The notes below the pieces were generated by a model. The model worked only from the letters and a program-made list of their open reading frames with translations, searched no databases and was not told the DNA's origin. The translations under genes were made by a program, and so were the position numbers. Below are positions 9,801 to 26,603 of a stretch of DNA of 64,000 nucleotides, one piece after another. Source of the stretch: Brevibacillus humidisoli (GTDB lineage: Bacteria; Bacillota; Bacilli; Brevibacillales; Brevibacillaceae); contig NZ_CP087263.1 in NCBI RefSeq assembly GCF_020923435.1, positions 2,437,970-2,501,969 of the forward strand. Direction: 5' to 3'. The stretch's first letter is position 1; each line of letters opens with the position of its first letter.

Positions 9801-10832
9801 CTATCTTCCTTCAAACCTGTCTGTTAGTATGCGCGACAATCCGATTGCCAGGTAGTCGAGCACCGCGATCACTTTTGCGTACTCCAAACGCGTCGGTCCA
9901 AGAATGCCAACCGTACCAACCGGCTTTCCGTCGAGGTAGTAGGAAGTGGTCACAATGCTGCAGTTTTTCATGACATCCATACTGTTCTCCTGACCGATGC
10001 GGATCATCAGTCCGGTCTCTTGCGTGTTGAACAACTGCATCAGTTGATCGTTCTGCTCAAGCAGCTCGAATAAATCCCTCACCTTTTCGACGTCCCGGAA
10101 TTCGGGCTGGTTGATGATCTTGGCCCGTCCGTGCAGGAAGATGCGGTCCGCGCTTTCACTTTTAAACGCATTTTCAATCGTAACCAACATCTCTTCGTAC
10201 GGCTCGACATGGCGGCGCATCTCGGATGCAACCTCCCGGTACAGGCGCTGACGCAGCTGCCAAAGCGGGACATCCTGCAGTTTGCTGTTCAGGATGTTGA
10301 CCAGTTTTTCAATCTCGGCAGCGGGTATGCCAGCCGGCAGATCGAGCAGTGTGTTTTCTACGCGTCCGGTATGGGTAACGATGATCGCCACCGCCTGCTG
10401 ATCGTTAAGCGGAACGATCTGGATATGCTTGAGCCGGTGTTCAAAAATCTCCGGCCCCAACACAATCGAAGTGTAGTTCGTCACTTGGGAGAGGATGGAA
10501 GCTGTATGCTCGATGACCTGTTCCACGTGCGTAATGCGATCGGCAAAGAGCTGCTTCAGGTTGACCAGCTCTTCTTCGCTCAAATGCTGCGGTTTTACCA
10601 GGTTGTCGACATAAAACCGATACCCTTTCGTAGAAGGGACGCGTCCCGCAGAGGTGTGCGGCTGCTCCAGATAGCCCAGTTCCTCCAGATCAGCCATCTC
10701 GTTGCGGATCGTAGCGGAACTGATCCCAAGGCCTTCGCGCTTGGAAATCGTCCGGGAACCAACTGGTTCAGCGGAACGAATGTAGTTGTCCACAATCGCA
10801 TTCAAGATAAATCTCTGACGGTCTGACAGCAT
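9801..10832 (-). CDS. hrcA: Heat-inducible transcription repressor HrcA
   Basis: 343 residues, normal family length. N-terminal winged helix (MLSDRQRFILNAIVDNYI..., SSATIRNEMADLEELGYL) that binds CIRCE, then the effector domain. It represses the dnaK and groE operons and is reactivated by GroEL. First gene of the heat-shock operon, with CIRCE 18 bp upstream of its ATG, so it is autoregulated. Confidence 0.98.
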   Translation of the reverse strand: MLSDRQRFILNAIVDNYIRSAEPVGSRTISKREGLGISSATIRNEMADLEELGYLEQPHTSAGRVPSTKGYRFYVDNLVKPQHLSEEELVNLKQLFADRITHVEQVIEHTASILSQVTNYTSIVLGPEIFEHRLKHIQIVPLNDQQAVAIIVTHTGRVENTLLDLPAGIPAAEIEKLVNILNSKLQDVPLWQLRQRLYREVASEMRRHVEPYEEMLVTIENAFKSESADRIFLHGRAKIINQPEFRDVEKVRDLFELLEQNDQLMQLFNTQETGLMIRIGQENSMDVMKNCSIVTTSYYLDGKPVGTVGILGPTRLEYAKVIAVLDYLAIGLSRILTDRFEGR

Positions 10833-10849
10833 GTTCTACGCCCCCTTTG

Positions 10850-10876
10850 TTAGCACTCAAAGTTAACGAGTGCTAA
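10850..10876 (-). promoter_or_regulatory. CIRCE operator (HrcA binding site)
   Basis: Perfect match to the CIRCE consensus TTAGCACTC-N9-GAGTGCTAA, located between the candidate promoter and the hrcA start. Confidence 0.99.
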
Positions 10877-10887
10877 AACATACTATT

Positions 10888-10916
10888 AAGGTATCAAGTG
10901 ACAGCATATTTGTCAA
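10888..10916 (-). promoter_or_regulatory. Candidate sigma-A promoter of the hrcA operon
   Basis: Minus-strand TTGACA (10911-10916) is a perfect -35; 17 bases later TACCTT (10888-10893) is a weak -10. The position immediately upstream of CIRCE is as expected for dnaK operons. Confidence 0.6.
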
Positions 10917-10957
10917 CTTCCGGGAAAGTACATTTCCATGGTTTGCGTCTCTGTCTG

Positions 10958-12103
10958 TCAGTCTCTCAAAAACTGCATAAACACCTCGTTGCCGACCGGC
11001 AGCGCTTGTCTGGTTAATCGCAGGTATCCCTCCGACTCTTCAAGCATCCCTTTTTCTTTCTGCCGACTGACCACCTCGCCGAACTCCTGTTGAACCGTCC
11101 GTCCGTACCGATGCGCAAACCGTTCCAGGTCGACACCACGTCTGAGGCGAAGTCCGAGAATCATTTCGTTTTCCATGGCCTCTTCTGCCTCCACGGCATA
11201 CTCCTCCACCCTTGGCAGGCCGTCGGCCGCCATCTGCATGTATACGGCGAGCGGCCCTGCATTGACATGGCGGCGGCCCTGTACGTAGCCATGCGCGCCG
11301 GCGCCGATCCCATAGTATTCCTCGTTTAGCCAGTACGTCTGATTATGCCGGCTCTCCCGCCCCGGTTTGGCAAAGTTGCTGATCTCGTACATCATCAAGC
11401 CGTTTTGTTCCATCCTGTCGATCAGCATCAGATACATCGCCAGTTCGTCCTCTTCGCTTGGCAGCGGCAGTTGCTCTTTCTGATAGAGTGTATGGAAGAG
11501 TGTATTCTCCTCCACTTTTAAACTGTATGCAGAAAGATGGCTGAGCGGAAGCGCAAGTGCATGTCCAATCGAACGTTCAAAATCAGCAAGGGTCTGCTCC
11601 GGCAGGCCGAACATCAGATCAATCGAGATGTTGTCAAACCCGGCCATTAGCGCCGTCTCCACACTTCGGCGCACCTCATCGGCACTGTGGATGCGGCCCA
11701 GCCGTTTCAACAGGCGATCGTCAAAGGACTGAGCCCCGAAGCTGAGTCGGTTTACTCCGAAGGCACGCATGACCGTCAGCTTGTCATGATCCGTCGTCCC
11801 GGGATTTGCTTCCATAGAAAACTCGTACGAGGAGGTCAGTTTTGAGCCGAGGTGTTTCTGCACCGTTTCGAGGAAAAAGTGCATCTGGTCCCGGTCGAGA
11901 AAGGTAGGGGTACCACCCCCTACAAAGATGGTTTCCACCTGCTGCGGCGCTAAGGCGGAAAAGGTTCGCTCCATCTCCCGCTCCAGCGCGTACAGATAAT
12001 CCCAGATCAGCTGCGGATTGTTGGTCACAAACGAATTGAAATCACAGTAGTAACACTTGTTGGTACAAAAGGGAATGTGGATATAAACAGAACGCGGTGG
12101 CAC
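10958..12103 (-). CDS. hemW: Radical SAM heme chaperone HemW
   Basis: 381 residues. Radical SAM cysteines C13-x3-C17-x2-C20 in IHIPFCTNKCYYCDF, then VGGGTPTFL; a HemN C-terminal-like domain ends the protein. It lacks the extra cysteine of true coproporphyrinogen dehydrogenase HemN, so it is the HemW type that inserts heme into respiratory enzymes. The start is GTG 12103 with AAGGAGGGA at a good distance. Conserved position between lepA and hrcA; 77 bp separate it from lepA. Confidence 0.94.
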   Translation of the reverse strand: MPPRSVYIHIPFCTNKCYYCDFNSFVTNNPQLIWDYLYALEREMERTFSALAPQQVETIFVGGGTPTFLDRDQMHFFLETVQKHLGSKLTSSYEFSMEANPGTTDHDKLTVMRAFGVNRLSFGAQSFDDRLLKRLGRIHSADEVRRSVETALMAGFDNISIDLMFGLPEQTLADFERSIGHALALPLSHLSAYSLKVEENTLFHTLYQKEQLPLPSEEDELAMYLMLIDRMEQNGLMMYEISNFAKPGRESRHNQTYWLNEEYYGIGAGAHGYVQGRRHVNAGPLAVYMQMAADGLPRVEEYAVEAEEAMENEMILGLRLRRGVDLERFAHRYGRTVQQEFGEVVSRQKEKGMLEESEGYLRLTRQALPVGNEVFMQFLRD

Positions 12104-12143
12104 AGACTCTCCCTCCTTCTTTTCCCTTGCAGCAGAAACACGG

Positions 12144-12172
12144 ACGACCTGACAGATCGGCCGTCAGGTCGT
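12144..12172. repeat. Inverted repeat between lepA and hemW
   Basis: Perfect 10-bp stem ACGACCTGAC/GTCAGGTCGT with a 9-base loop. No clear T-run on the minus strand, so a weak terminator or processing site downstream of lepA at most. Confidence 0.45.
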
Positions 12173-12180
12173 ATTTCATC

Positions 12181-13998
12181 CTATTTTTTGTTATCCATGC
12201 GGAGTACGGCCATAAATGCTTCCTGCGGCACTTCCACCGATCCGACCGCTTTCATCCGCTTTTTCCCTTCCTTCTGCTTCTCCAACAGCTTCCGCTTCCG
12301 TGACACGTCACCGCCGTAACACTTGGCCAGGACGTTCTTGCGCATCGCGCTGATCGTCTCGCGGGCGATGATCTTATGTCCGATCGCCGCCTGAATCGGC
12401 ACCTCAAAATGCTGACGAGGAATTAGTTCTTTCAGCTTCTCGCAAATCACTTTGCCGCGGGCATAAGCGGTGTCTCTGTGGACGATGAAAGAAAGGGCGT
12501 CCACTACTTCGCCATTGAGCAGAATGTCCACTTTTACCAGCTTGGACGGTTTGTAGCCAGCCATCTCGTAATCAAAGGAAGCGTACCCTCTGGTACCGGA
12601 CTTTAGCAAATCAAAGAAATCATAGACGATTTCGGAAAGCGGCATATCATAGGTAAGCTGTACGCGATTTTCCCCGAGGTACTGCATGTCGAGGAAGTCG
12701 CCACGCTTGCCCTGACAGAGCTGCATCACATCGCCGACGTAATCCTTCGGCACCATAATCGTCGCTTTGACATACGGTTCTTCAATCTGTTCGATCTTCT
12801 GTATCTCCGGCATCTTGGAAGGATTGTCGATTTCGATGACGGTTCCGTTGGTTAGGGTGATCCGGTAGATCACGCTCGGCGCGGTCGTGATCAGATCGAT
12901 TTTGAACTCACGCTCAATCCGCTCCTGGATGATTTCCATGTGCAAAAGTCCGAGAAATCCACAGCGGAAACCAAAGCCCAACGCCTGTGACGTCTCCGGC
13001 TCGTACTGCAGCGAGGCGTCGTTGAGCTGCAGCTTTTCCAGCGCATCGCGCAGATCGTTGTAGTCACTGGTGTCAATCGGGTACAAACCACAGAACACCA
13101 TCGGGTTGATCCTGCGATATCCAGGGAGCGGCTGCGCCGCCGGGCGACTTGCATCAGTGATGGTATCCCCGACACGGGTATCGCCCACCGTCTTGATCGA
13201 AGCTGCCACATAGCCTACGTCTCCTACGGTCAATTCCTCGACTGGAGTCTGACGCGGCGTTGACGTGCCTACTTCCGTTACTTCGTATGTCTTGTTGGTA
13301 GCCATCATCCGGATTTTCATCCCTTTGCGCAGCGTACCGTTGACAACACGCACGGAAGCAATGACACCACGGTAGGAGTCAAAGTACGAGTCAAAGATTA
13401 GGGCCTGAAGCGGAGCATCCGGATCGCCGCTAGGCGCCGGTACTTTCTTGACCACTTCTTCCAGTACTTCCTGAATGCCGATGCCCGCTTTGGCGGAGAC
13501 CAGACACGCTTCACTGGCATCAAGGCCGATCACATCCTCGATCTCCCGCTTGATCCGTTCCGGTTCTGCGCTTGGAAGGTCAATTTTGTTGATGACCGGT
13601 ATGATTTCCAAATCGTTGTCAAGCGCCAGATATACGTTGGCCAGCGTTTGTGCCTCGATCCCCTGCGCAGCATCGACGACCAGCAGGGCTCCTTCACAGG
13701 CAGCCAGACTGCGGGAGACCTCGTAGGTAAAGTCGACGTGACCGGGTGTATCGATTAAATGGAGAATATACTCCTCCCCGTCGTTGGCCTTGTATGTCAA
13801 ACGGACGGCGTTTAGCTTGATCGTGATGCCGCGTTCCCGTTCCAAGTCCATCGTGTCCAAAAACTGGGCTTCCATCTCGCGTTCCGTGAGGGCCCCGGTC
13901 AATTCCAGAATGCGGTCTGCAAGCGTAGATTTGCCGTGGTCGATGTGTGCGATAATGGAGAAGTTGCGAATTTTTTTCTGTCTTTCCAGGCGATCCAT
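12181..13998 (-). CDS. lepA: Elongation factor 4 (LepA)
   Basis: 605-residue ribosome-associated GTPase. G1 motif AHIDHGKST at about 18-26, switch/G3 DTPGH, G4 NKIDLP, then EF-G-like domains and the LepA-specific C-terminal domain ([17 protein letters not shown]... through [16 protein letters not shown]). It acts on stalled or mistranslocated ribosomes and in initiation-complex assembly. Start taken as ATG 13998 ([14 protein letters not shown]); a GTG seven codons upstream (14019) would include the ribosome site. Upstream lies the boundary of the accessory region. Confidence 0.97.
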
Positions 13999-14190
13999 AT
14001 GTTTTTTCGTCCCTCCCACGTAAAGTGGAAAACTGTCAACGATCCTAAATCAAAAAAAGCACTAACGGATATTATAGCAAACCGACTGAATACCGGCAAC
14101 AGGCTTGCGAAGACTCGCCACCCGCTGCCGGATGTGATAGGCTAGGCATGAGGATCAAAGGATGGCGATAGACGCAAAAGGAGAGATGAG

Positions 14191-14870: not shown

Positions 14871-15034
14871 GTACAGATAAAGCCTTGGAGATGGATCTGA
14901 CTTGTCAACGCATCCAAATCCTTGACGACCGAGAAAAAGCAGGAAATATCCCCCATTTGCTCGAAATGATATAAGAACGAGCACGACTAACGGAAACTTC
15001 ATCCATAAAGAAATACGAAAGGGTGATACGGACT

Positions 15035-15523
15035 GTGGAGCTGCAAAATCTCCGTCCCGATCAAATCATTTTATCCCTGCAGGATACGATGACTCGCCTG
15101 GAGAAGCTGCTGCGTCAACTTCCCGAATCAGCGTGGCAGTTATCGATTGCTCCTGGCAAATGGACCGTCGCCGAAATCGTAGGTCATCTATATGACACGG
15201 AAGAGGTATGGGGAGGACGGATTGAAAAAGTCTGCCATGAGGAGAAACCTGATTTGCCTGGATATGATCCAGAATCCTATGTACGACAGCGGGGATACAA
15301 GCAGTATAATCTGTCGGAGATGACGGAACTATTGCAAGCCTACCGCCAACATCGGGAGAAGACGCTGGCCTTGCTTCAAGGAGATGTGTGGAGACGCGTC
15401 GGGGTTCATCTGGAGGAAGGAGAGATGAGTGTGCAGGTGTTGACAGAGATTCTTGCTCTACATGAGCAGCATCATTTGCAGCAAATTGAACAAATCTGGC
15501 AGACAGCGCAACAACAGGAGTGA
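15035..15523 (+). CDS. DinB-like (YfiT/DUF664 type) putative metalloenzyme
   Basis: 162 residues forming a DinB/YfiT-like four-helix bundle. Conserved histidines appear in EIVGHLYDTEE and near the C terminus in ALHEQHHLQQIEQI, the triad that binds a divalent metal in this superfamily. Superfamily members include bacillithiol S-transferase BstA and thiol-dependent transferases; specific function unknown. The start is set at GTG 15035, eight bases after AAAGGGTGA; the frame also has a GTG at 15023 but that overlaps the ribosome site. Stands alone, 170 bp after the VOC gene. Confidence 0.8.
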   Translation: MELQNLRPDQIILSLQDTMTRLEKLLRQLPESAWQLSIAPGKWTVAEIVGHLYDTEEVWGGRIEKVCHEEKPDLPGYDPESYVRQRGYKQYNLSEMTELLQAYRQHREKTLALLQGDVWRRVGVHLEEGEMSVQVLTEILALHEQHHLQQIEQIWQTAQQQE

Positions 15524-15687: not shown

Positions 15688-16935
15688 TCAGACAGACAAA
15701 TCAGAGCGGACCTGCACCATCTTCACAGATAACAGGTGGTGAAGCAGACTGGCAAACAGGAGGAATCCACCCATGCACCAGGCGATCGTGGAAACAGAAA
15801 GCTCGTTTCCGATGATCGCCATCAGCATAAATCCGCCCAGGTAAAACGATCGCGAGAGAGCAAGTGAGGAGGCAAAAATACGCCCCTGTACTTCAGGCTT
15901 GGCATAGGTCATAATGCTGGTCGAACTTAGCACATCAATCGGGCTGTACCAAAGATTGGCGACAACGACAAGCAGCAAAAAAATCCAAAAATCGCCTAGT
16001 TGATACGACAGTGTGTGGAAGAAACCAAGCAACAGCAGCGATAGTGTTGCCCATTTGCGATATTGTTCCGGCGTGAACTTTTGCTTTTTAAAATAGGCCG
16101 CGAGCGTAAGCCCACCGAGAATTTGCCCGATTCCAGTAGCAGTATGACCGACGCCTAAGCCAAAATTCCCTTGATTTACCACCTGCAAAATGTATAGGCT
16201 AAAGATGACATAAACAACGCTAAGCGCTGCTTCCCTTGCCATCAAGATCCAGATCGCACATTGTATGTTGCGGGATTTTTTGATCTCCTGCATTCCTTCG
16301 CGCACTTGCTCTATATACGAAACGCGTTCTCTAACCGTGGATGATGGTTGGGTCGGTTTGATAAAAACCAGACAGAGAGCAGAAACCAAAAACGTCGCTG
16401 CGTCAATAAGATAGATCGTCTGGGCTGACCACAGATCAGCAAGCAATCCGCCCAAACCAGTGGAAATGAGCATGGCAGCACTGAAGCTGGTGGCGAGGAT
16501 ACTGTTGGCACGAGGCAGTTGATCCGACTTGATGACTTCCGGTATCAGCGCTGACCTCGCCGGAAGATACAAGCCAGAAAACGCTCCATTGATCGCCAAT
16601 AGCAGATAGAGCAGGTAAGGCGACTCCAGCGGAATCATGAGGACAAACCCGCATCCAACCAGCACGCGTGCCAAATCGGCAACGATCATTAACGTGCGAC
16701 GAGGAAAACGGTCAATCACTGGCCCGAGGAAAGAGGAAACCACAACCATAGGAAAGATAGACGAGATAAACAACAAGCTGAGGTTGGCTGCACTCCCCGT
16801 CCAGACATAAACAAGTCCAATTGTCGTGACGGTCCGGAACCAATCGCCAAAAGCTGACAAATTTTGTCCAGCAAGCAGGAGGAGGAAATTACGGTTCCTG
16901 GCCAGTCCAAGCCTCGGTTGTGTCTTCGACTGCAC
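15688..16935 (-). CDS. MFS transporter (enterobactin/macrolide-exporter-like)
   Basis: 415 residues, about 12 hydrophobic segments. The first part (NRNFLLLLAGQNLSAFGDWF, then GPVIDRFPRRTLMIVADLAR, the MFS loop 2-3 motif) resembles the MFS_3 (PF05977)/EntS-like exporters of siderophores and drugs. The start is 2 bp from the stop of the upstream radical SAM gene, so both are almost certainly one transcript. By context it may export the product of that enzyme, or give resistance to it; the substrate is unknown. Confidence 0.88.
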   Translation of the reverse strand: MQSKTQPRLGLARNRNFLLLLAGQNLSAFGDWFRTVTTIGLVYVWTGSAANLSLLFISSIFPMVVVSSFLGPVIDRFPRRTLMIVADLARVLVGCGFVLMIPLESPYLLYLLLAINGAFSGLYLPARSALIPEVIKSDQLPRANSILATSFSAAMLISTGLGGLLADLWSAQTIYLIDAATFLVSALCLVFIKPTQPSSTVRERVSYIEQVREGMQEIKKSRNIQCAIWILMAREAALSVVYVIFSLYILQVVNQGNFGLGVGHTATGIGQILGGLTLAAYFKKQKFTPEQYRKWATLSLLLLGFFHTLSYQLGDFWIFLLLVVVANLWYSPIDVLSSTSIMTYAKPEVQGRIFASSLALSRSFYLGGFMLMAIIGNELSVSTIAWCMGGFLLFASLLHHLLSVKMVQVRSDLSV

Positions 16936-16937
16936 TG

Positions 16938-18305
16938 TTAAACCTCCACACGAACTGGTTCATACCAGTTCAGTTCTTCTTGCATGCTTTTGACCGCACG
17001 ATTATAGTAGGGACGCTCGGATTCGGGAATCAAATCAACGAGCAAAGCCTGATACCATGGCCTGGCCTCTCTGTGAAGGATATAGGTATCCTCGTTTTCC
17101 ACAACGATCCCTCGGTCTACCATTGTGTCTAACTTGTTGAGCAACTCATCCTTGATGGGAAAAGCTTTTAGGTAGGATTTTTTGATCTCCATCGTTTTGG
17201 GGAAAAACACTAATTTTCTTTCATAAGCGTGATATGAACGTGCACGCGAGACGGCAAGCTCGCCTGCTTCGAGCTTTTGCATGTATGTTTTCGTATCGCC
17301 CTCATTTCCCCAGCAGATCCCTTGCATATACGAAATCGCTCCCGTTCCAAACCCGATACACTGATCCTCATAGCCACCGTAGATCACTTCTCCATACTTG
17401 AATCGTTTCTGTTGGTGACCCGGCGCCATAAAGGTATACACGTATTTTTGTGTCCAACCACTTTGCTCCAAGTAATCGTAAACAGTTTGATTGTACTTGA
17501 TCTTTTCATACGGACTAGGCGGCTGTGACAGTATGCCCCGGTTAATCTTGCCTAACCAACCTTTCGCACAGACGATATACTCCAAGGGATACGTATCAAT
17601 ACTGGTCGTCCCAAGAGCCATCACTTGCTTCAGATCCAGCATTAGTTCTTCCATCGATTGGCCAGGCAGGTGATAAAGCAGGTCCAGATTATACGCTTGG
17701 AAATAACGCCCCATCGTCTCTACCGTCTGATAAATCTCATCATAGCTGGCTGTCAGGTTAAACATCTTCCGATAGTGTTGATTCATGGTTTGTACGCCAA
17801 AACTGCCCCGGTTCGCACCGCCCTCTACCATGGCGGCAACTCGTTCTTCGTCGGCAGACTTGGCCTCACATTCGAACGTCCACTCGTAATCTTCAGCCAA
17901 AGTAAAGTTTCGCTTGATCGCTGCGCTAAGCTTTGCAATTAAATCTGGCGTCAATACGGATGGACTGCCTCCCCCGACAAATACGACATCAAAGGTTAAG
18001 GACTGGACAACCGGTGAAGATGCTATCATTTCCATCTCACGAATCAACATATCGACATATTGCCCGATTATCGGTTCATATTTGGTCGATTTGATGAACG
18101 GACAGAAAGAACATATTGTATCGCAAAAGGGGATATGCAGGTAAATTGCATTTTTTCCTGGTTGAATCTTGGTGGGTGAATCGACGATATAAGCCTTTAC
18201 TCGCTCCTGTGCTCTTTCATGACTTCCCTCTCCGAAGAATGGATAGAGAAAGTTCCACAGCAACGGCTGAACCGGATAATAAGCGCTCATCCGATCGAAA
18301 TTCAT
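16938..18305 (-). CDS. HemW/HemN-like radical SAM protein of unknown function
   Basis: 455 residues. YLHIPFCDTICSFCPF holds the radical SAM cysteines C61-x3-C65-x2-C68 followed by Pro rather than the Asp of HemW. VGGGSPSVL and the downstream LLYHLPGQS and GFGTGAISYM motifs place it in the coproporphyrinogen oxidase-like superfamily that includes HemW, ChuW/HutW and class C radical SAM methyltransferases. It is a paralogue of hemW 6 kb away but clearly divergent. The start at ATG 18305 has GGAGTGAGGG upstream; the frame stays open to 18407 through a hairpin (18338-18366) but that ATG has no ribosome site. Operon with the MFS gene; preceded by a 10-codon ORF. Confidence 0.85.
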   Translation of the reverse strand: MNFDRMSAYYPVQPLLWNFLYPFFGEGSHERAQERVKAYIVDSPTKIQPGKNAIYLHIPFCDTICSFCPFIKSTKYEPIIGQYVDMLIREMEMIASSPVVQSLTFDVVFVGGGSPSVLTPDLIAKLSAAIKRNFTLAEDYEWTFECEAKSADEERVAAMVEGGANRGSFGVQTMNQHYRKMFNLTASYDEIYQTVETMGRYFQAYNLDLLYHLPGQSMEELMLDLKQVMALGTTSIDTYPLEYIVCAKGWLGKINRGILSQPPSPYEKIKYNQTVYDYLEQSGWTQKYVYTFMAPGHQQKRFKYGEVIYGGYEDQCIGFGTGAISYMQGICWGNEGDTKTYMQKLEAGELAVSRARSYHAYERKLVFFPKTMEIKKSYLKAFPIKDELLNKLDTMVDRGIVVENEDTYILHREARPWYQALLVDLIPESERPYYNRAVKSMQEELNWYEPVRVEV

Positions 18306-18337
18306 TACACCCTCACTCCTTCTAACCAGTTTCTTTG

Positions 18338-18366
18338 CGATGAGGGCTGGTAGCCAGCCCCCATCG
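18338..18366 (-). repeat. 13-bp hairpin in the leader of the radical SAM gene
   Basis: CGATGAGGGCTGG pairs with CCAGCCCCCATCG with one G-T wobble and a 3-base loop. It lies between the 10-codon ORF and the radical SAM ribosome site. There is no T-run after it, so it is not a standard terminator; it could control access to the ribosome site or mRNA stability. Confidence 0.75.
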
Positions 18367-18391
18367 ACAAAAGATAAACCCCTAGACCTTT

Positions 18392-18424
18392 TTACAGAGC
18401 TACCCATTCATTCACTTGTCTCAT
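18392..18424 (-). CDS. 10-residue ORF with strong ribosome site: leader or precursor peptide
   Basis: ATG AGA ... TAA encodes MRQVNEWVAL. AAAGGAGGGA ends 6 bases before the ATG and is the strongest Shine-Dalgarno in this stretch, much better than that of the radical SAM gene 87 bp downstream. Either a regulatory leader peptide (translation would affect the hairpin that follows) or a very short substrate peptide for the radical SAM enzyme. No family match can be claimed for so short a sequence. Conserved occurrence in relatives would be needed to confirm it. Confidence 0.5.
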   Translation of the reverse strand: MRQVNEWVAL

Positions 18425-18560
18425 GTGCACTCCCTCCTTTCACCGTTTTTTCAGCAAAGCAGCGATTCGTCTGCTCTGCCACAAGCAGGGCTACAAATGA
18501 GGGATCGAATCACTTATAACCTGCTGATCCCCTGCTTATTGTTTGAATATTCTACATTTA
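18425..18560 (-). promoter_or_regulatory. Structured 5' leader upstream of the radical SAM operon
   Basis: On the minus strand AAGCAGGG (18540-18547) can pair with CCCTGCTT (18483-18490), enclosing a GATC/GATC pairing (18536-18539 with 18503-18506). A second hairpin pairs 18471-18479 with 18454-18462 (9 bp, one G-T). No T-box, SAM or cobalamin riboswitch signature was recognised. Together with the mini-ORF and next hairpin this looks like a regulated leader. Confidence 0.45.
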
Positions 18561-18747
18561 TAGATAATTACCTGCCTCTTTATCTAAATAATCCTAAAAT
18601 AGTACAAAAATCCCAAATTCTCTTGTTGTTAAGAGAGGGGGTAGCAGACGGGCGATAGTATGGTGTTGGTAGCTTGCAGCCATCAAAGCATATGAAGAGG
18701 GGCTACCCCAAGTAGATTTTGTCTACGTGTGGGATAGCCCCAGTTCT
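18561..18747. other. AT-rich non-coding stretch and hairpin upstream of the radical SAM operon
   Basis: 18561-18640 is AT-rich and probably holds the operon promoter, though no clean -35/-10 pair is evident. 18699-18741 forms an extended hairpin: GGGGCTACCCC with GGGATAGCCCC (one wobble), and inside it GTAGA with TCTAC. It is not followed by a T-run. It may be an insertion-sequence scar or a terminator remnant of the truncated gene to its right. Confidence 0.5.
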
Positions 18748-19016
18748 TTAGTCCCCCTGCTCTGCCTTGGCCTGATTGCGGGCGTGCAGGTCGTCGATCG
18801 TTTGGTTGTGCTCCACCCTTCTTGGAAGATCGCCATACGGCTTTCCATTCCCTATGTACGCATCATATGTCCGTCCCATGTCTACCACATACAAGCCATG
18901 ATGCAGTAAAGTGTTCGTGCTACAGAAATAACAGCGTACCAAACTCTTTCTGTGTGGGAATTTTCGTTGTACTTGCTCAAAAGATCCCCCAGGTGGTCGT
19001 CTTTGTGCGCTTCACA
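18748..19016 (-). pseudogene. Remnant gene sharing its 3' end with the anti-sigma gene at 26899
   Basis: An open minus-strand frame without a convincing start encodes a Cys-containing segment (CYFC...TLLHHGLYVVDMGRTYDAY) and ends in HNQTIDDLHARNQAKAEQ. The last 59 bp (18756-18814) are identical, with one mismatch, to 26907-26965, the 3' end of the anti-sigma factor gene. The rest is unrelated to that gene. It looks like a chimeric or truncated remnant created by recombination at the edge of the IS-rich segment. Only a TTG at 18942 could start a short product, with no ribosome site seen. Confidence 0.6.
18756..18814 (-). repeat. 59-bp direct repeat, copy 1
   Basis: Near-identical (58/59) to 26907-26965 in the same orientation. 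The two copies bracket the 8.1-kb segment containing the IS elements. Confidence 0.9.
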
Positions 19017-19740: not shown

Positions 19741-20457
19741 TCATCGATTCATCAGTGAATCCTTATGACGAAAACTATCACGATTAAAAACAATCAAATG
19801 CGAATAGTGAATGAGACGATCAATGAATGCTTCCGTCAGTATTGGATCGCCAAAAACGTGATTCCATTGGCCGAACTGTAAGTTGGTTATGATGACACTA
19901 CGCTTTTCATAACACAGATTGATCACTTGAAACAGTAACTCTGCTCCTTGCTTGTGAAGGGGTACATAGCCTAATTCATCAAGAATTAATAGATCCAGGC
20001 TCTCTATTTGTTTAAACAGCCTACCAAGAGTTCCCTTCTCGTTAACCTCTAACAGGCTGTTCACGAGTTGAGCGACTGTATAGAAGCGCACCCGTTTTTG
20101 GCTTTTTTGGATGCAGTTCCAGCCTGCCAAGGCTGCCATAAGCGTTTTCCCGACCCCGACGCCTCCATATAGGATTAAATTCTCTTTTCTCTCTATGAAC
20201 CTGCCTTGCAAGATTTCTTCCTTTGTAATGTTTCCATTCATATGAATACCGTGCCATTCTAGCTGCTTGCCAGATATATCCGGCAAACAGGATTGACTGA
20301 GAAGGAGATTGAGCTTCCGTTCCTCTCGTTGCTGTATTTCCCTTTCGAATAAGCAGAGCAGAAATTCTTCATGTGTTTCAGCTTCCACCGCGTGATAATT
20401 CTCCCGTATCCAACTTAATTTCAAACGCTTGGCATGCTCTTCAATGAGGCTTCTCAC
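19741..20457 (-). CDS. istB: IS21-family helper ATPase IstB (element 1)
   Basis: 238 residues. DnaA/DnaC-like AAA+ ATPase with Walker A GGVGVGKT (about 98-105) and Walker B LLILDELGY. It assists IstA in target capture and strand transfer. The start overlaps the istA stop by 4 bp (ATGA), the usual coupling in IS21. Length is normal, so likely functional. Confidence 0.95.
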   Translation of the reverse strand: MRSLIEEHAKRLKLSWIRENYHAVEAETHEEFLLCLFEREIQQREERKLNLLLSQSCLPDISGKQLEWHGIHMNGNITKEEILQGRFIERKENLILYGGVGVGKTLMAALAGWNCIQKSQKRVRFYTVAQLVNSLLEVNEKGTLGRLFKQIESLDLLILDELGYVPLHKQGAELLFQVINLCYEKRSVIITNLQFGQWNHVFGDPILTEAFIDRLIHYSHLIVFNRDSFRHKDSLMNR

Positions 20458-21965
20458 CGCTGCTCACCTCCTGGCATAATCATCAACCGATCATAATGAG
20501 AGAGGCCTCTGCTTGAATTTCTAGTTGATGGCACTGAAGGCGGAAGCGACAGTGTTTCTCGAATGCCTCGTCCATTCACAAGCTGATAATAGACGTGCTT
20601 GATGGATTCCGTGGTAGGATGTCCATGTTCGGATGCAATCCGTAGGGCTTGTAGAGATATGTCGAAATCCTGTTCCTTTAATATGACGGATAAAAGTTGG
20701 AGAGCATTCCGTTTCTCCTCGACTGTACATTCACCGAAAAAGGCTTTCCATTCCTCCGGCAATTGATCGTAGAATGAGCTGTATTTCAAAGCGGTTGGCC
20801 TCTTTGCCATCAAGGTCAGATAAGGTTGCCAGTCCATCGACTTCTTTGTCTCCCCATATAATCTGGGGTGGCGTACGATCACTTCATTTTCCTCGTTCAG
20901 AAGCGAGATCGTATCAAATGAGATCTTCGCCAATACCGCTTGTCCCGCAAAGCGTGGCGAAGTGGAATATTGCTTTTGGTCAATACGGACGATTCCGTAT
21001 TTATCCGCTTTGACCTGCTCGAACCGAACGCATTCGTACGCTTTACCGGGCAGTTGGAGGAAGCGCTCCTTGTCTTCCAAATATAGTTCGGCAATCAGGG
21101 TATCCTTTTCATAGTGGCAACGTTTCCGATCCCCCAGGCTCCAATTCAGGGTCTTCTCATTCAAGACCGACAGGTCTTCATAGTGGATTTCCGGCAACAG
21201 ATAGTTGTTTCGTATGTATTTGACCATTGCTTCCACGTGCCCTTTCTCGTTTCCGCTTCCCGGATTGCAGAATTCATATTGGAAGCCATAATGGGCAACA
21301 AAACGAGCGAATTCCTCTGTTACTTGCCGTTCCCCGTTTGGCAGCACTTTCTTCACCGCAGGTGACAGGTTATCGAAACGGATCGTATGCGGCACGCCTT
21401 CTAGAAAGGCGAACATGTTCGTCAGTCCTTGTAGAAAACACTCCCGGTTTTGGGAAGGGAACACTTGAAACAGGAATGAATTGCTGTAAGGGAATGAGAG
21501 GACGAGGAAGGGCAAGATGACCTCTTTTCCCCTGTGCTTAAAAGGAGCTTCCCCAAAATCTACCTGTGCTGTGCCGGCCTTCGCCTCTAACGGTAAGGCA
21601 GTGTCATTGCTCTCGTCCAATAAGGCGGCTTTCCTTTTCGCCACATAGGCACGAATCGTACGGTCAGAGCCTTGGAATCCATGTTCCGAAACGAGAAGAG
21701 TATAGATTCGCTTTGCGGTTCTTCTGAACTTCTTTTTCTTCCCCATATCTTCAAGTAGCCATTGATCAACGATTGGTTTAACCGGATCCATTACATTGGC
21801 TTTCCTTGTCTGTACAGACTTCACCTCCTGATTGAAATCCTCCATCTCCGAATACTTCTTGATTGTCCTGCGATCCATATTCATCTGTCTTGCAACAGAA
21901 GAGTAGGAGCGACCTTTTGTGTTTGTTTCATGTCTGATATAATTGACTTCAGCCATTGCTAACAT
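20454..21965 (-). CDS. istA: IS21-family transposase IstA (element 1)
   Basis: 503 residues. N-terminal helix-turn-helix (RSYSSVARQMNMDRRTIKKYSE), then the integrase catalytic core (AGTAQVDFGEAPF for the first Asp, VPHTIRFDNLSPAV for the second, a Glu after GNEKGHVEAMVKYIRN), and the Mu-transposase-like C terminus. It cuts and joins the element ends. Different in length and sequence from the IstA of element 2, so the two are distinct IS21 types. Confidence 0.95.
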   Translation of the reverse strand: MLAMAEVNYIRHETNTKGRSYSSVARQMNMDRRTIKKYSEMEDFNQEVKSVQTRKANVMDPVKPIVDQWLLEDMGKKKKFRRTAKRIYTLLVSEHGFQGSDRTIRAYVAKRKAALLDESNDTALPLEAKAGTAQVDFGEAPFKHRGKEVILPFLVLSFPYSNSFLFQVFPSQNRECFLQGLTNMFAFLEGVPHTIRFDNLSPAVKKVLPNGERQVTEEFARFVAHYGFQYEFCNPGSGNEKGHVEAMVKYIRNNYLLPEIHYEDLSVLNEKTLNWSLGDRKRCHYEKDTLIAELYLEDKERFLQLPGKAYECVRFEQVKADKYGIVRIDQKQYSTSPRFAGQAVLAKISFDTISLLNEENEVIVRHPRLYGETKKSMDWQPYLTLMAKRPTALKYSSFYDQLPEEWKAFFGECTVEEKRNALQLLSVILKEQDFDISLQALRIASEHGHPTTESIKHVYYQLVNGRGIRETLSLPPSVPSTRNSSRGLSHYDRLMIMPGGEQR

Positions 21966-22198: not shown

Positions 22199-23440
22199 AT
22201 GCTAAAGAATGGGGAGTTTTACTTGATTAAAGACATGAAACAAAGAGGAATGAGTACCACGCAAATTGCGAACGAATTAGGGAGGGATCGAAAAACAATC
22301 CGTAAGTGGCTGAAGAGAGATGAACCTTCGAAATACCAGCGAACCGTCAAAAAAGCAAGCATCCTCGATCCATTTAAACCCTATATCAAAGCGAGAATGG
22401 AAGAAGGCTGCTTAAATGCTGTTGTCTTGTTTGATGAAATTAGAGCCCAGGGATACTCAGGACAAATTAGACTCCTTCGTTCCTTCATGGAACCATTGCG
22501 CCCCGTCGTTACCTCCAAGGCAACGATCCGTTATGAAACCACACCTGGTAAGCAAGCGCAAGTAGACTGGGGACATTTCAAAGTGGAATGGAATGGTGGA
22601 TATAAACGACTATACGCCTTTGTCATGGTTTTGGGATACTCGAGAATGTTGTATGTGGAATTTACGGAGAACGAACGGCTGGATACCCTCATCGGCTGTC
22701 ACTTACGTGCCATGCAATACTTTGGAGGCAGACCGGATACATGCTTGTACGACAATATGAAAACCGTCATTGCAGGTTACGACGACCAAGGCCATGTATT
22801 GTGGAATGAACGTTTTTCTCAGTTTGCAAGTCATCACGGCTTTACCCTCCGGCGTTGTGCCCCCTACCGTGCACGAACAAAAGGGAAAGTAGAAAATGGT
22901 GTTGGCTATGTGCGAAAGAATTTTTGGCCTCGCGTACAGTCGTTTACCAGCCTGAGTGACTTGAATCAACAAGTACGCCATTGGTTGGATACGGTAGCCA
23001 ATGTACGGATTCACGGCACCACACATGAAAAGCCGGTAGATCGATGGAAACATGAACAGTTGAAGCCGCTTAACCCGGTTCCGTTCGAAGAAGTAGAACG
23101 GCATACTCGAAGAGTATCCAACGATTTGCTCGTTTCTTACGGAGGAAGCAGGTATTCTGTACCCTATACCTATATTGGTCATACGGTACAGGTACAAGAT
23201 CTCCAGAATGGTCATATCCGGATCTATCAGGGCAACACGATTATCGCTGAACATCAAAAAGCAGTTCGTTCCAAACAAGTCGTAACCAATAAAAAACACT
23301 TCGAGGGGATTCAAACCCAAAGTCGCGTGAAGGCTCCCCAACCTATGCCGCGTCTGGTTTCAAATCCAAGCCCTGAAGTGGTGGAACGTGATTTATCAGT
23401 CTACGAGCAGTTTGCTGACGAGGAGGTGATCGTACAATGA
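22199..23440 (+). CDS. istA: IS21-family transposase IstA (element 2)
   Basis: 413 residues. Helix-turn-helix (RGMSTTQIANELGRDRKTIRKWL), then a DDE core (KQAQVDWGHFKVEW with the first Asp, CLYDNMKTV with the second, KGKVENGVGYVRKNF with the Glu). Typical IS21/IS408-type length. GGAGGAGAG precedes the ATG. Overlaps istB by 4 bp. Confidence 0.95.
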   Translation: MLKNGEFYLIKDMKQRGMSTTQIANELGRDRKTIRKWLKRDEPSKYQRTVKKASILDPFKPYIKARMEEGCLNAVVLFDEIRAQGYSGQIRLLRSFMEPLRPVVTSKATIRYETTPGKQAQVDWGHFKVEWNGGYKRLYAFVMVLGYSRMLYVEFTENERLDTLIGCHLRAMQYFGGRPDTCLYDNMKTVIAGYDDQGHVLWNERFSQFASHHGFTLRRCAPYRARTKGKVENGVGYVRKNFWPRVQSFTSLSDLNQQVRHWLDTVANVRIHGTTHEKPVDRWKHEQLKPLNPVPFEEVERHTRRVSNDLLVSYGGSRYSVPYTYIGHTVQVQDLQNGHIRIYQGNTIIAEHQKAVRSKQVVTNKKHFEGIQTQSRVKAPQPMPRLVSNPSPEVVERDLSVYEQFADEEVIVQ

Positions 23441-24216
23441 TGCTCCAGTCCCGTTTAGAAGAAGCCTTTTCGCAAATGGGATGGGTACGAATCCCGGAAA
23501 TTATTCACCACCACGCAGAAGAAGCTGCTGCTCAGAATATATCGTATTTGGAGTTCTTGGACAAGCTTTTGCAAGAGGAAATCAAGGCCAAGAGGGATCG
23601 ATTTATTCGAATGAAGACACGATTGGCTCATTTACCCTACCATAAAACATTAGAGCAATTCGATTTCAGTTTCCAGCCTTCCGTAGATGAAAGACGGATT
23701 CGTGATTTGGCAACCCTCCGGTTTGTGCACCAACAGGAGAATCTCATTTTGCTGGGTCCGCCAGGAGTCGGAAAGACCCACTTGTCTGTTGCATTGGCTC
23801 TGGAAGCCATTAAGCAAGGTTTGACAGTTTACTTTACAACTGCTCACGATTTGGTTCAGACACTTCAGATTGCCCATCAAAACAATAGTATCAAACAAAA
23901 AATGCGGGCTTTTATTAAGCCGAATGTACTGATCATTGATGAAATCGGCTATCGCAAGATGGATGAAACGGCAGCTCATTTTTTCTTTCAAATCGTTTCG
24001 GAGCGTTATGAATCTGGTTCGATTATTCTTACCTCGAACAAGTCTTATGGTTCGTGGGGAGAGATATTTGGAGATACGGTACTTGCCACCGCCATCCTTG
24101 ATCGATTATTGCATCACTCCCACACCATCAACATTAAAGGAGAAAGTTATCGCATAAAGGAGAAGAAAAAAGCTGGTTTCTTTCGACCAGAGACAATTGA
24201 AGATAAAACCGAATGA
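23437..24216 (+). CDS. istB: IS21-family helper ATPase IstB (element 2)
   Basis: 259 residues with Walker A GPPGVGKTHL and Walker B VLIIDEIGY; DnaC-like. Works with the upstream IstA; start coupled by a 4-bp overlap. Intact length. A GC-rich 7-bp stem (GCCCCCC/GGGGGGC, 24237-24252) follows 20 bp later within the element and may stop transcription. Confidence 0.95.
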   Translation: MMLQSRLEEAFSQMGWVRIPEIIHHHAEEAAAQNISYLEFLDKLLQEEIKAKRDRFIRMKTRLAHLPYHKTLEQFDFSFQPSVDERRIRDLATLRFVHQQENLILLGPPGVGKTHLSVALALEAIKQGLTVYFTTAHDLVQTLQIAHQNNSIKQKMRAFIKPNVLIIDEIGYRKMDETAAHFFFQIVSERYESGSIILTSNKSYGSWGEIFGDTVLATAILDRLLHHSHTINIKGESYRIKEKKKAGFFRPETIEDKTE

Positions 24217-25309: not shown

Positions 25310-25382
25310 GAGTCTATAAAATATTTTGTGTAAACTCTCAACCTACTCATTTACAATTAACTTAGAAAGGTTGGGATTTTTT

Positions 25383-26603
25383 ATGAGCCTCATACCAAAA
25401 GAGCAACTCAGGCAGTGGATTAAGGAAAAGAACATGAAGTCGATGGAGGATGTGCAATCAGCTTTAAAAGAGCTGTTCGCTGACACCATCCAGGAGATGC
25501 TGGAAGCCGAATTGGAGACTGAACTTGGCTACGCGAAGCATGACTCCAAAAACAAACGAACCACGAACAGTCGCAATGGATACAGCAAGAAGACCGTTCG
25601 TTCCGAATATGGTGATATCGACATTCAGGTACCACGGGATCGAGAGGGAGAGTTTGATCCCGTTATCGTGAAGAAACACCAGTCAAACGTTACAGGGATC
25701 GAAGATCAGATTCTTGCCATGTACGCCAAAGGGGTATCCACTCGCGACATTCAAGATCACCTGCAGCAGCTCTATGGCATTGAGGTCTCGCCAACACTCA
25801 TTTCCAACGTAACGAACAAAATCATTCCCTTGATTAAAGAGTGGCAGAATCGTCCCCTGCAATCGGTGTACGCTGTCGTTTTCATGGATGCGATTCATTT
25901 TAAGGTAAAGCAGGACGGAGCCATCGTCAATAAGGCTGCGTATATGGTCATTGGCATCGATCTGGATGGCCACAAAGATGTCCTTGGCATCTGGATCGGG
26001 GAAAATGAATCCGCGAAGTTTTGGCTCCACGTACTTAACGAGTTGAAGAACCGTGGTGTCCAAGATATTTTAATCACTTCCGTTGACAACCTGAAAGGCT
26101 TTACAGAAGCCATATCGGCATGTTACCCGAAGACAGAAATTCAGAAGTGCATCATCCATCAGATTCGGAATTCCATCAAGTATGTGTCATACAAGGACTT
26201 GAAGAAGATTACGTCAGAGCTTAAGCCGATCTATAAGGCTCCAACGGAGCAAGCAGCCTTAGAAGAACTCGATCATTTTGAACAGTCCTGGGGTAACAAA
26301 TATCCCTTGTTGGTACGTTCCTGGCGGAACAATTGGGCCGAAATCGCCACCTTCTTCAAATACCCACCAGAGATTCGAAAACTCATTTACACGACGAATG
26401 TCATTGAGAGTTACCATCGACAATTACGGAAAGTTACGAAAGGAAAAGCTGTATTTCCAACGGACGAAGCCCTTCTCAAAATGCTTTATCTCGTGACGAT
26501 GGATGTCTTACGGAAATGGACGGGACGAGTCCAAAACTGGGGACAGATCCTGTTACAACTATCCGTATTCTTTGAAGAGAGAGTACAACCGTACATTCGT
26601 TAA
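25383..26603 (+). CDS. IS256-family transposase
   Basis: 406 residues, mutator-type (PF00872) transposase. N-terminal DNA-binding region, then the DDE core with VVFMDAIHFKV (first Asp), ILITSVDNLKGF (second Asp) and the C-terminal Glu near YTTNVIESYHRQLR. Start at ATG 25383 (MSLIPKEQL, as in relatives); 19 extra upstream codons overlap the terminal repeat region. Intact. Confidence 0.95.
   Translation: MSLIPKEQLRQWIKEKNMKSMEDVQSALKELFADTIQEMLEAELETELGYAKHDSKNKRTTNSRNGYSKKTVRSEYGDIDIQVPRDREGEFDPVIVKKHQSNVTGIEDQILAMYAKGVSTRDIQDHLQQLYGIEVSPTLISNVTNKIIPLIKEWQNRPLQSVYAVVFMDAIHFKVKQDGAIVNKAAYMVIGIDLDGHKDVLGIWIGENESAKFWLHVLNELKNRGVQDILITSVDNLKGFTEAISACYPKTEIQKCIIHQIRNSIKYVSYKDLKKITSELKPIYKAPTEQAALEELDHFEQSWGNKYPLLVRSWRNNWAEIATFFKYPPEIRKLIYTTNVIESYHRQLRKVTKGKAVFPTDEALLKMLYLVTMDVLRKWTGRVQNWGQILLQLSVFFEERVQPYIR

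Follow-up and report, generated by a model that had tools for sequence, protein, structure and literature searches.

We describe a family of minigenes encoding short tryptophan-containing peptides, which is conserved beside the gene of a radical SAM enzyme in the window (the whole stretch of 64,000 nucleotides analysed here, from the 4.9 Mb, single-contig genome of Brevibacillus humidisoli) and in 14 related genomes. Judged from its sequence, the locus is quite probably a minimal RiPP-like pathway, in which the minigene would encode the peptide, a HemN-like radical SAM maturase would modify its core, most likely at the tryptophan, and an MFS protein would export the product. The features of the locus are the following:

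16938-18305, minus strand: radical SAM gene, 455 aa, with C61/C65/C68 (Pfam Radical_SAM, 7.1e-17); proposed HemN-like maturase
15688-16935, minus strand: MFS transporter gene, 415 aa; proposed exporter
18392-18424, minus strand: minigene MRQVNEWVAL, 10 codons; proposed precursor peptide
18431-18440, minus strand: ribosome-binding site of the minigene, AAAGGAGGGA, which aligns with AAGGAGGGGA in the congener G002
18338-18366, minus strand: 13-bp stem-loop separating the minigene from the enzyme gene; proposed as a partial terminator or a point of RNA processing
about 18454-18539, minus strand: two stem-loops 5' of the minigene (nested inverted repeats), from folding; two are also found in G002
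15023-15523, plus strand: gene of a 166-aa protein with a DinB_2 fold, convergent with the MFS gene; a role in protection or thiol transfer is proposed

The initial annotation had read this region as a HemW-like radical SAM gene and an MFS exporter behind a structured leader with a 10-codon ORF, and had proposed either a leader-peptide-controlled operon or a minimal modified-peptide pathway. The layout it gave was accurate. The cysteine triad of the radical SAM protein is present, the MFS gene starts 2 bp beyond the radical SAM gene on the same strand, the 10-codon ORF lies behind its ribosome-binding site, and the hairpin in the gap has a 13-bp stem with one G-U pair and a 3-nt loop. No sigma-70 or terminator consensus was found in 18300-18800.

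Tryptophan minigenes in 15 genomes

Relatives were collected from a class-wide sample, from plasmids and from a scan of 84,980 species genomes (35 loci). Duplicates were counted once (L077 is L059; L070, L072, L073, L074 and L075 are L051, L055, L057, L053 and L058), and the loci L089-L101, partial matches of 27-33% identity in metagenome bins, lie outside the examined set. The main set comprises the window's genome and 14 genomes whose enzyme is 39-82% identical to the window's. The enzyme is 81% identical in the congener G002, 64% in Cytobacillus kochii (on a plasmid), 62-63% in Bacillus xiamenensis, B. safensis and B. zhangzhouensis, 46% in Polycladospora coralii, 45% in Alteribacillus persepolensis and 42-45% in Tumebacillus; the other loci of the species scan stand at 33% or less.

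Tiny genes with strong ribosome sites, one to eight per genome, were present in all 15 genomes. In G002 the minigene encodes MRQSTEWFTV and has the same length, the same position and a similar ribosome site as that of the window. C. kochii carries MKKEWVALKNEWVAL 5' of the enzyme gene, Alteribacillus carries MRTEWLVV and Polycladospora carries MSNEWISVKNEWIAV twice, also in that position. All three Bacillus species have MKRNEWIAI 5' of the enzyme gene; the copies differ pairwise by 2, 3 and 5 bases, and every difference is synonymous. Three Tumebacillus-family genomes have two enzyme genes each, with upstream sets such as MREWIIVAA, MKQWIVVAAE and MEKNWIIAVERNWIVVQERNWIIVAA. In one of them (G178) a row of seven minigenes precedes the first enzyme gene and a single minigene the second. 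In the four other genomes of this family the minigenes lie beyond the MFS gene. T. lacus has four of them after it on the same strand, whereas T. permanentifrigoris, T. flagellatus and G138 each have a pair on the other strand, with as many as four cores. The minigenes are thus upstream of the enzyme gene in 11 of the 15 genomes, past the MFS gene on the opposite strand in three and after it on the same strand in one.

The peptides share the core W-[I/L/V/F]-x-[V/I/L], which recurs across 35 minigenes with 58 tryptophans. The residue after tryptophan is I, L, V or F in 58/58 cores, and the third residue after it is V, I or L in 54/58, with the reservation that every minigene was selected for containing one core that obeys the rule. 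Glutamate precedes the tryptophan in only 30/58 cores, and cysteine is absent from all 35 peptides. The minigene peptide has 8-10 residues; elsewhere its length rises to as much as 35, and the core may be repeated up to four times. A classical leader is not apparent. The core was first noticed in the early loci; those of Bacillus and Alteribacillus were found later, as were the Tumebacillus arrays beyond the MFS gene.

A minigene was scored when it had part of an SD-like hexamer, encoded 8-40 residues and contained [NEKDQS]W[IVLF]x[VIL]. Both strands were scanned and the longest start was counted. As far as the locus extended, the scan covered 3 kb ahead of the best match's start and 4 kb beyond that start. 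By this strict rule, which was framed after all 15 loci were known and with close, non-independent relatives among them, 15 of 15 loci were positive, compared with a mean of 0.9 and a maximum of 4 of 15 in 40 dinucleotide shuffles per locus. On this comparison we reject a chance ORF. Loci with more distant enzymes had no motif minigene (0/21, shuffles 0.65). Among these 21 are three radical SAM loci of the Tumebacillus family that belong to another branch, as well as Alicyclobacillus and Catellatospora, where the tiny tryptophan ORFs present fail the rule. Searching the whole genome with a degenerate DNA pattern for Glu-Trp was uninformative (76 matches vs 58 in the reversed control).

The system is distributed patchily among genomes. 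With the window's own genome included wherever it was part of the sample, enzymes at E <= 1e-45 occurred in 2 of 39 genomes of the order and in 11 of the 398 sampled from the class, of which one has only a distant form. At E <= 1e-80 we found them in 3 of 44 genomes of the genus Bacillus and in 7 of 7 of the Tumebacillus family. In a phylum sample of 398 genomes the single hit at E <= 1e-85 was the window's own genome, and two scans of viral contigs returned no relatives.

The position of the minigenes bears on the leader-peptide-controlled operon of the initial annotation. Here ribosome stalling or Trp-dependent attenuation at the mini-ORF and hairpin would control the radical SAM and MFS genes, for which the short tryptophan ORF, its strong SD and the hairpin directly following it would be suited. 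A precedent for ribosome-dependent termination after a minigene is described in the cited part of a study on microcin C (PMC6495379). However, an attenuator has its peptide ORF in cis upstream of the genes it controls, and four of the 15 genomes depart from this, T. lacus with its same-strand set behind the MFS gene and three others with sets beyond that gene on the opposite strand. Given these opposite-strand sets, a cis leader is not the general role of the minigenes. Up to eight minigenes in a genome and up to four cores in a peptide would also be unexpected for a stalling leader. We consider this explanation very improbable, and the operon proposal is not supported, although the two roles could coexist where the minigene is upstream. 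The tandem arrays and internally repeated cores in Tumebacillus fit the role of a substrate.

The peptides might instead be exported signals such as pheromones, or active without modification, while the radical SAM enzyme has another product or affects them only indirectly. They are short and hydrophobic and have an exporter alongside, and a regulator with HTH_3 and TPR domains is encoded near the Alicyclobacillus locus. Among the common neighbours of the 15 loci, however, no such regulator was recognised, and the minigenes accompany the enzyme gene in 15/15 genomes, staying near it despite changes of position and strand. This alternative seems unlikely to us, if less so than a regulatory leader. 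A precursor-like small gene conserved together with a modifying enzyme, as is found in all 15 loci, is what a RiPP-like pathway would have. The mini-ORF, its tryptophan and the hairpin that follows recur in relatives. At the level of sequence this strongly supports the other proposal of the initial annotation, that of a minimal pathway for a modified peptide with its exporter.

The radical SAM enzyme

The enzyme is a member of the HemN-like superfamily and, among the NCBIfam families, scores highest against ChuW/HutW (TIGR04107), with 208.8 bits. A heme-metabolism enzyme of the HemW or ChuW/HutW type, with an incidental mini-ORF, could be argued from this, but the cutoff of that family is 400 bits. 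The HemW family (TIGR00539) gave 123.2 bits vs a cutoff of 205.4, and a separate gene at 10958-12103 encodes a protein that scores 359.2 bits with it, a true HemW. With both curated cutoffs missed, we reject HemW and HutW function for the enzyme, which is better described as HemN-like than as HemW-like, the term of the initial annotation. The neighbours, MFS and DinB genes, and a minigene family far above chance also speak against a heme enzyme, which is hardly credible at this locus.

The AlphaFold2 model of the enzyme (mean pLDDT 85) has HemN 1olt as its best structural match, with TM scores of 0.73/0.76 over 445 aligned columns. A C-terminal domain of the HemN_C kind, which a class C radical SAM methylase would be expected to have, was not found by Pfam in the window enzyme at E <= 0.001. 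Tyr56, Cys62/66/69 and Glu145 of HemN align with Y55, C61/65/68 and E145 of the enzyme. In the cited part of the NocN structure paper, Tyr34, Arg153 and Asp196 contact SAM molecules (PMC12871812). These three align with Y55, R166 and D208, which are invariant in both alignments; the NocN SAM ligands Tyr96 and Ser225 align with Phe109 and Asp237, a mismatch. Since the SAM-binding residues of HemN and NocN align in this way, it is likely from sequence and model that the enzyme is HemN-like and binds two SAM molecules. The fold and the two-SAM residues are those of class C radical SAM methylases, except at the positions of Tyr96 and Ser225.

According to the passages cited, sp2 carbons are the targets of class C methylases; the indole on which NosN puts a SAM-derived carbon is then linked to a Glu side chain (PMC12871812). 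The invariant tryptophan fits such chemistry by analogy, the actual reaction here being putative. A Glu-indole link of the NosN kind cannot be general, because glutamate precedes tryptophan in only about half of the cores.

A tree of 39 proteins, built with guessed radical SAM starts for L078-L088, united the 17 minigene enzymes from Bacilli that it included in one group (94/94). The Catellatospora enzyme is a long branch off an unresolved fork, and the Alicyclobacillus enzyme falls in another clade, whose other members lack a tryptophan minigene by the same scans. The minigene label requires 2 changes on this tree vs 13.5 in shuffles, with Catellatospora and Alicyclobacillus labelled positive.

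Both of these distant enzymes are 30% identical to the window's, and both loci have a tiny ORF and a stem-loop, which is suggestive of distant members. In Catellatospora sichuanensis (L076, 5863-12007) the ORF encodes MTKWVAGGA and is followed by the stem-loop and a HemN-like radical SAM gene. Behind the latter come an HMGL-like gene, flanked by two genes of the aminotransferase fold, and a gene of the Na/H-exchanger family, perhaps a longer pathway around the same core. Further relatives of this locus were sought in 250 genomes of its family and 296 of its class, and each search returned one hit, the source itself. The locus on plasmid p1 of Alicyclobacillus sp. TC (L050, 4213-9106) has the order MRDIVWDIVW minigene (a direct repeat), stem-loop, radical SAM gene, a gene for a 132-aa protein of unknown kind and MFS gene. 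Its HTH_3+TPR regulator is on the other strand, and a link to peptide signalling is possible there.

Other branches of the enzyme family have different surroundings. Plasmids of Klebsiella, Xenorhabdus and Glaesserella (L064, L065, L066) carry distant homologues with no tryptophan minigene by our scan, next to combinations of SpeD-like, cytochrome P450, MFS-type and ornithine decarboxylase genes, another small plasmid pathway. A second branch (L060-L063, from the Tumebacillus family and G349) has MFS-type ORFs in three of four loci and no motif minigenes; its enzyme gene is preceded by two paralogous ORFs, putative B12-binding radical SAM proteins by reading. In actinomycetes (L079, L080, L081, L084, L086, L087, L088) enzyme homologues stand beside a common ORF family, whose member in L080 has ATP-grasp and L-amino-acid-ligase C-terminal domains.

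Stem-loops, neighbouring genes and a proposed pathway

In the window the gap between minigene and enzyme gene measures 86 nt and folds with z -3.5. A stem-loop between upstream minigene and enzyme gene was found in 16/16 folded loci, with gaps of 79-193 nt and z from -2.0 to -5.8 (100 shuffles each). These are 16 enzyme genes, from 13 genomes of the main family with their double loci, plus Alicyclobacillus and Catellatospora. The stem-loop sequences look unrelated between genera. A run of T lies near the stem in Polycladospora and Alteribacillus, and the window's hairpin has none. The 16 stem-loops stand where microcin C has a hairpin terminator, and a terminator role for them is putative.

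The nested repeats 5' of the minigene, which the initial annotation had placed in the leader, do fold as two stem-loops. G002 also has stem-loops both before and after its minigene, the two upstream ones at the matching place and with a stem sequence partly different from the window's. As the comparison covers only the window and this one congener, we leave the repeats outside the conserved core. A known structured RNA in the leader is rejected: Rfam gave no match at gathering in the whole window, and none at E <= 1 in 18300-18800.

By BLAST clustering, an MFS homologue follows the enzyme gene in 15/15 genomes. Of the seven compared, those of the near group are 52-82% identical to the window's MFS protein, and those of the far group 31-33%. 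A DinB-superfamily gene adjoins the MFS gene in seven of the eight non-Tumebacillus genomes (five by Pfam, two by BLAST); within the stretch covered in G002 there was none. The window's DinB gene is on the other strand from the MFS gene. The DinB genes fall into two groups, that of the window (39-44% identity to the window's, three compared) and that of Polycladospora and Alteribacillus. As the two show no significant BLAST similarity, DinB may have been recruited twice. In two of the seven Tumebacillus-family genomes a DUF4760-type gene occupies this position (one by Pfam, one by BLAST). For the subset of neighbours scanned, the genes common to the loci are those of the radical SAM protein, the MFS protein and DinB or DUF4760; heme-uptake proteins did not occur among them.

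Other genes of the window were read from their ORFs. Two-gene sets of a putative IS21-type transposase and its ATPase helper lie at 19741-21965 (minus strand) and 22199-24216 (plus strand), and an ORF resembling an IS256-type transposase at 25326-26603 (plus strand). Near the locus, 9801-14019 (minus strand) has an hrcA-hemW-lepA-like order, in which hemW is named by NCBIfam and the flanking genes are those we take to be hrcA and lepA.

We propose the following minimal pathway. The minigene would be translated into a peptide of 8-10 residues, longer elsewhere, with the core W-[I/L/V/F]-x-[V/I/L], often preceded by E. From the association of the two genes and the conservation of the core we infer that the HemN-like enzyme modifies this core. 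The invariant tryptophan would be the likeliest site, either for one-carbon transfer to an sp2 carbon or for a bond made through it. Behind the minigene, the stem-loop would probably act as a partial terminator or processing point, so that the peptide is made in excess over the enzyme. The MFS protein would export the modified product, and the adjacent DinB-fold protein probably serves to protect the producing cell or to add a thiol; the biological role of the product is likewise putative.

A more specific version can be formulated. The leaderless tryptophan peptides of 8-10 residues, or their multi-core and tandem forms, would be direct substrates of a two-SAM enzyme that modifies the indole and, in some members, perhaps joins it to a nearby residue, for example Glu, via a SAM-derived carbon. 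After export by the MFS protein, DinB would give thiol-based self-protection against a reactive group, and the products would be a new natural-product class. This version is tentative, and we lean somewhat against its being correct in full.

Gene finders overlook ORFs of 8-15 codons. The 15-codon minigene of C. kochii, for instance, has no listed CDS in its record, whose gene table is incomplete by its own description. The Trp-core motif can be used for finding more such minigenes. If the proposed pathway is true, enzymes labelled only as radical SAM protein gain a peptide substrate with a simple tryptophan core, and these substrates are short enough for synthesis and a one-step assay.

Comparison with known systems

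We found no description of such a tryptophan-minigene and radical SAM system in the open-access PMC literature, which is the literature covered. The closest layout is that of microcin C. In the cited part of the source, it has a 7-codon gene (mccA), a hairpin-drawn terminator, one modifying enzyme and an export pump, and three genes should suffice; ribosome binding to the 7-codon gene induces termination between mccA and mccB, which yields the peptide in excess over the enzymes (PMC6495379). Both layouts show a minigene and, after it, a hairpin, here a putative terminator, together with a modifying enzyme and an exporter, which are proposed roles here. MccC is an MFS protein. In microcin C, however, an adenylating enzyme acts at the C-terminus of a single heptapeptide, whereas here the gene after the minigene encodes a radical SAM protein, an MccB-type adenylating enzyme is absent from that place, and the peptides have a tryptophan core, repeats and arrays. 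If our reading is true, this would be another case, besides microcin C, of a stem-loop behind a minigene that sets the ratio of peptide to enzyme.

Biarylitides, in the cited part of the source, have the smallest reported precursor, a pentapeptide, and their aromatic side chains are modified (PMC12951456). The small scale of the precursor is similar. Their cross-link is made by a cytochrome P450, in contrast to a radical SAM enzyme with peptides of 8-35 residues.

As for the enzyme, NosN/NocN and TbtI have a HemN-like fold, use two SAM molecules and act on sp2 carbons, including indole, in the cited parts of PMC12871812 and PMC11285071. The HemN-like fold and the aligned SAM-binding residues are shared, a methylase activity here being putative. 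NosN/NocN and TbtI tailor large thiopeptides within many-gene clusters. The enzyme described here differs in being the sole recognised modifying enzyme common to the loci, next to a peptide of 8-35 residues. ChuW/HutW is its best-scoring named family, but the score reaches about half of the cutoff, and the neighbours scanned contain no heme-uptake protein. The minigene loci are possibly a new class of RiPP-like system, which resembles microcin C in layout and the biarylitides in scale, and by its enzyme is neither.
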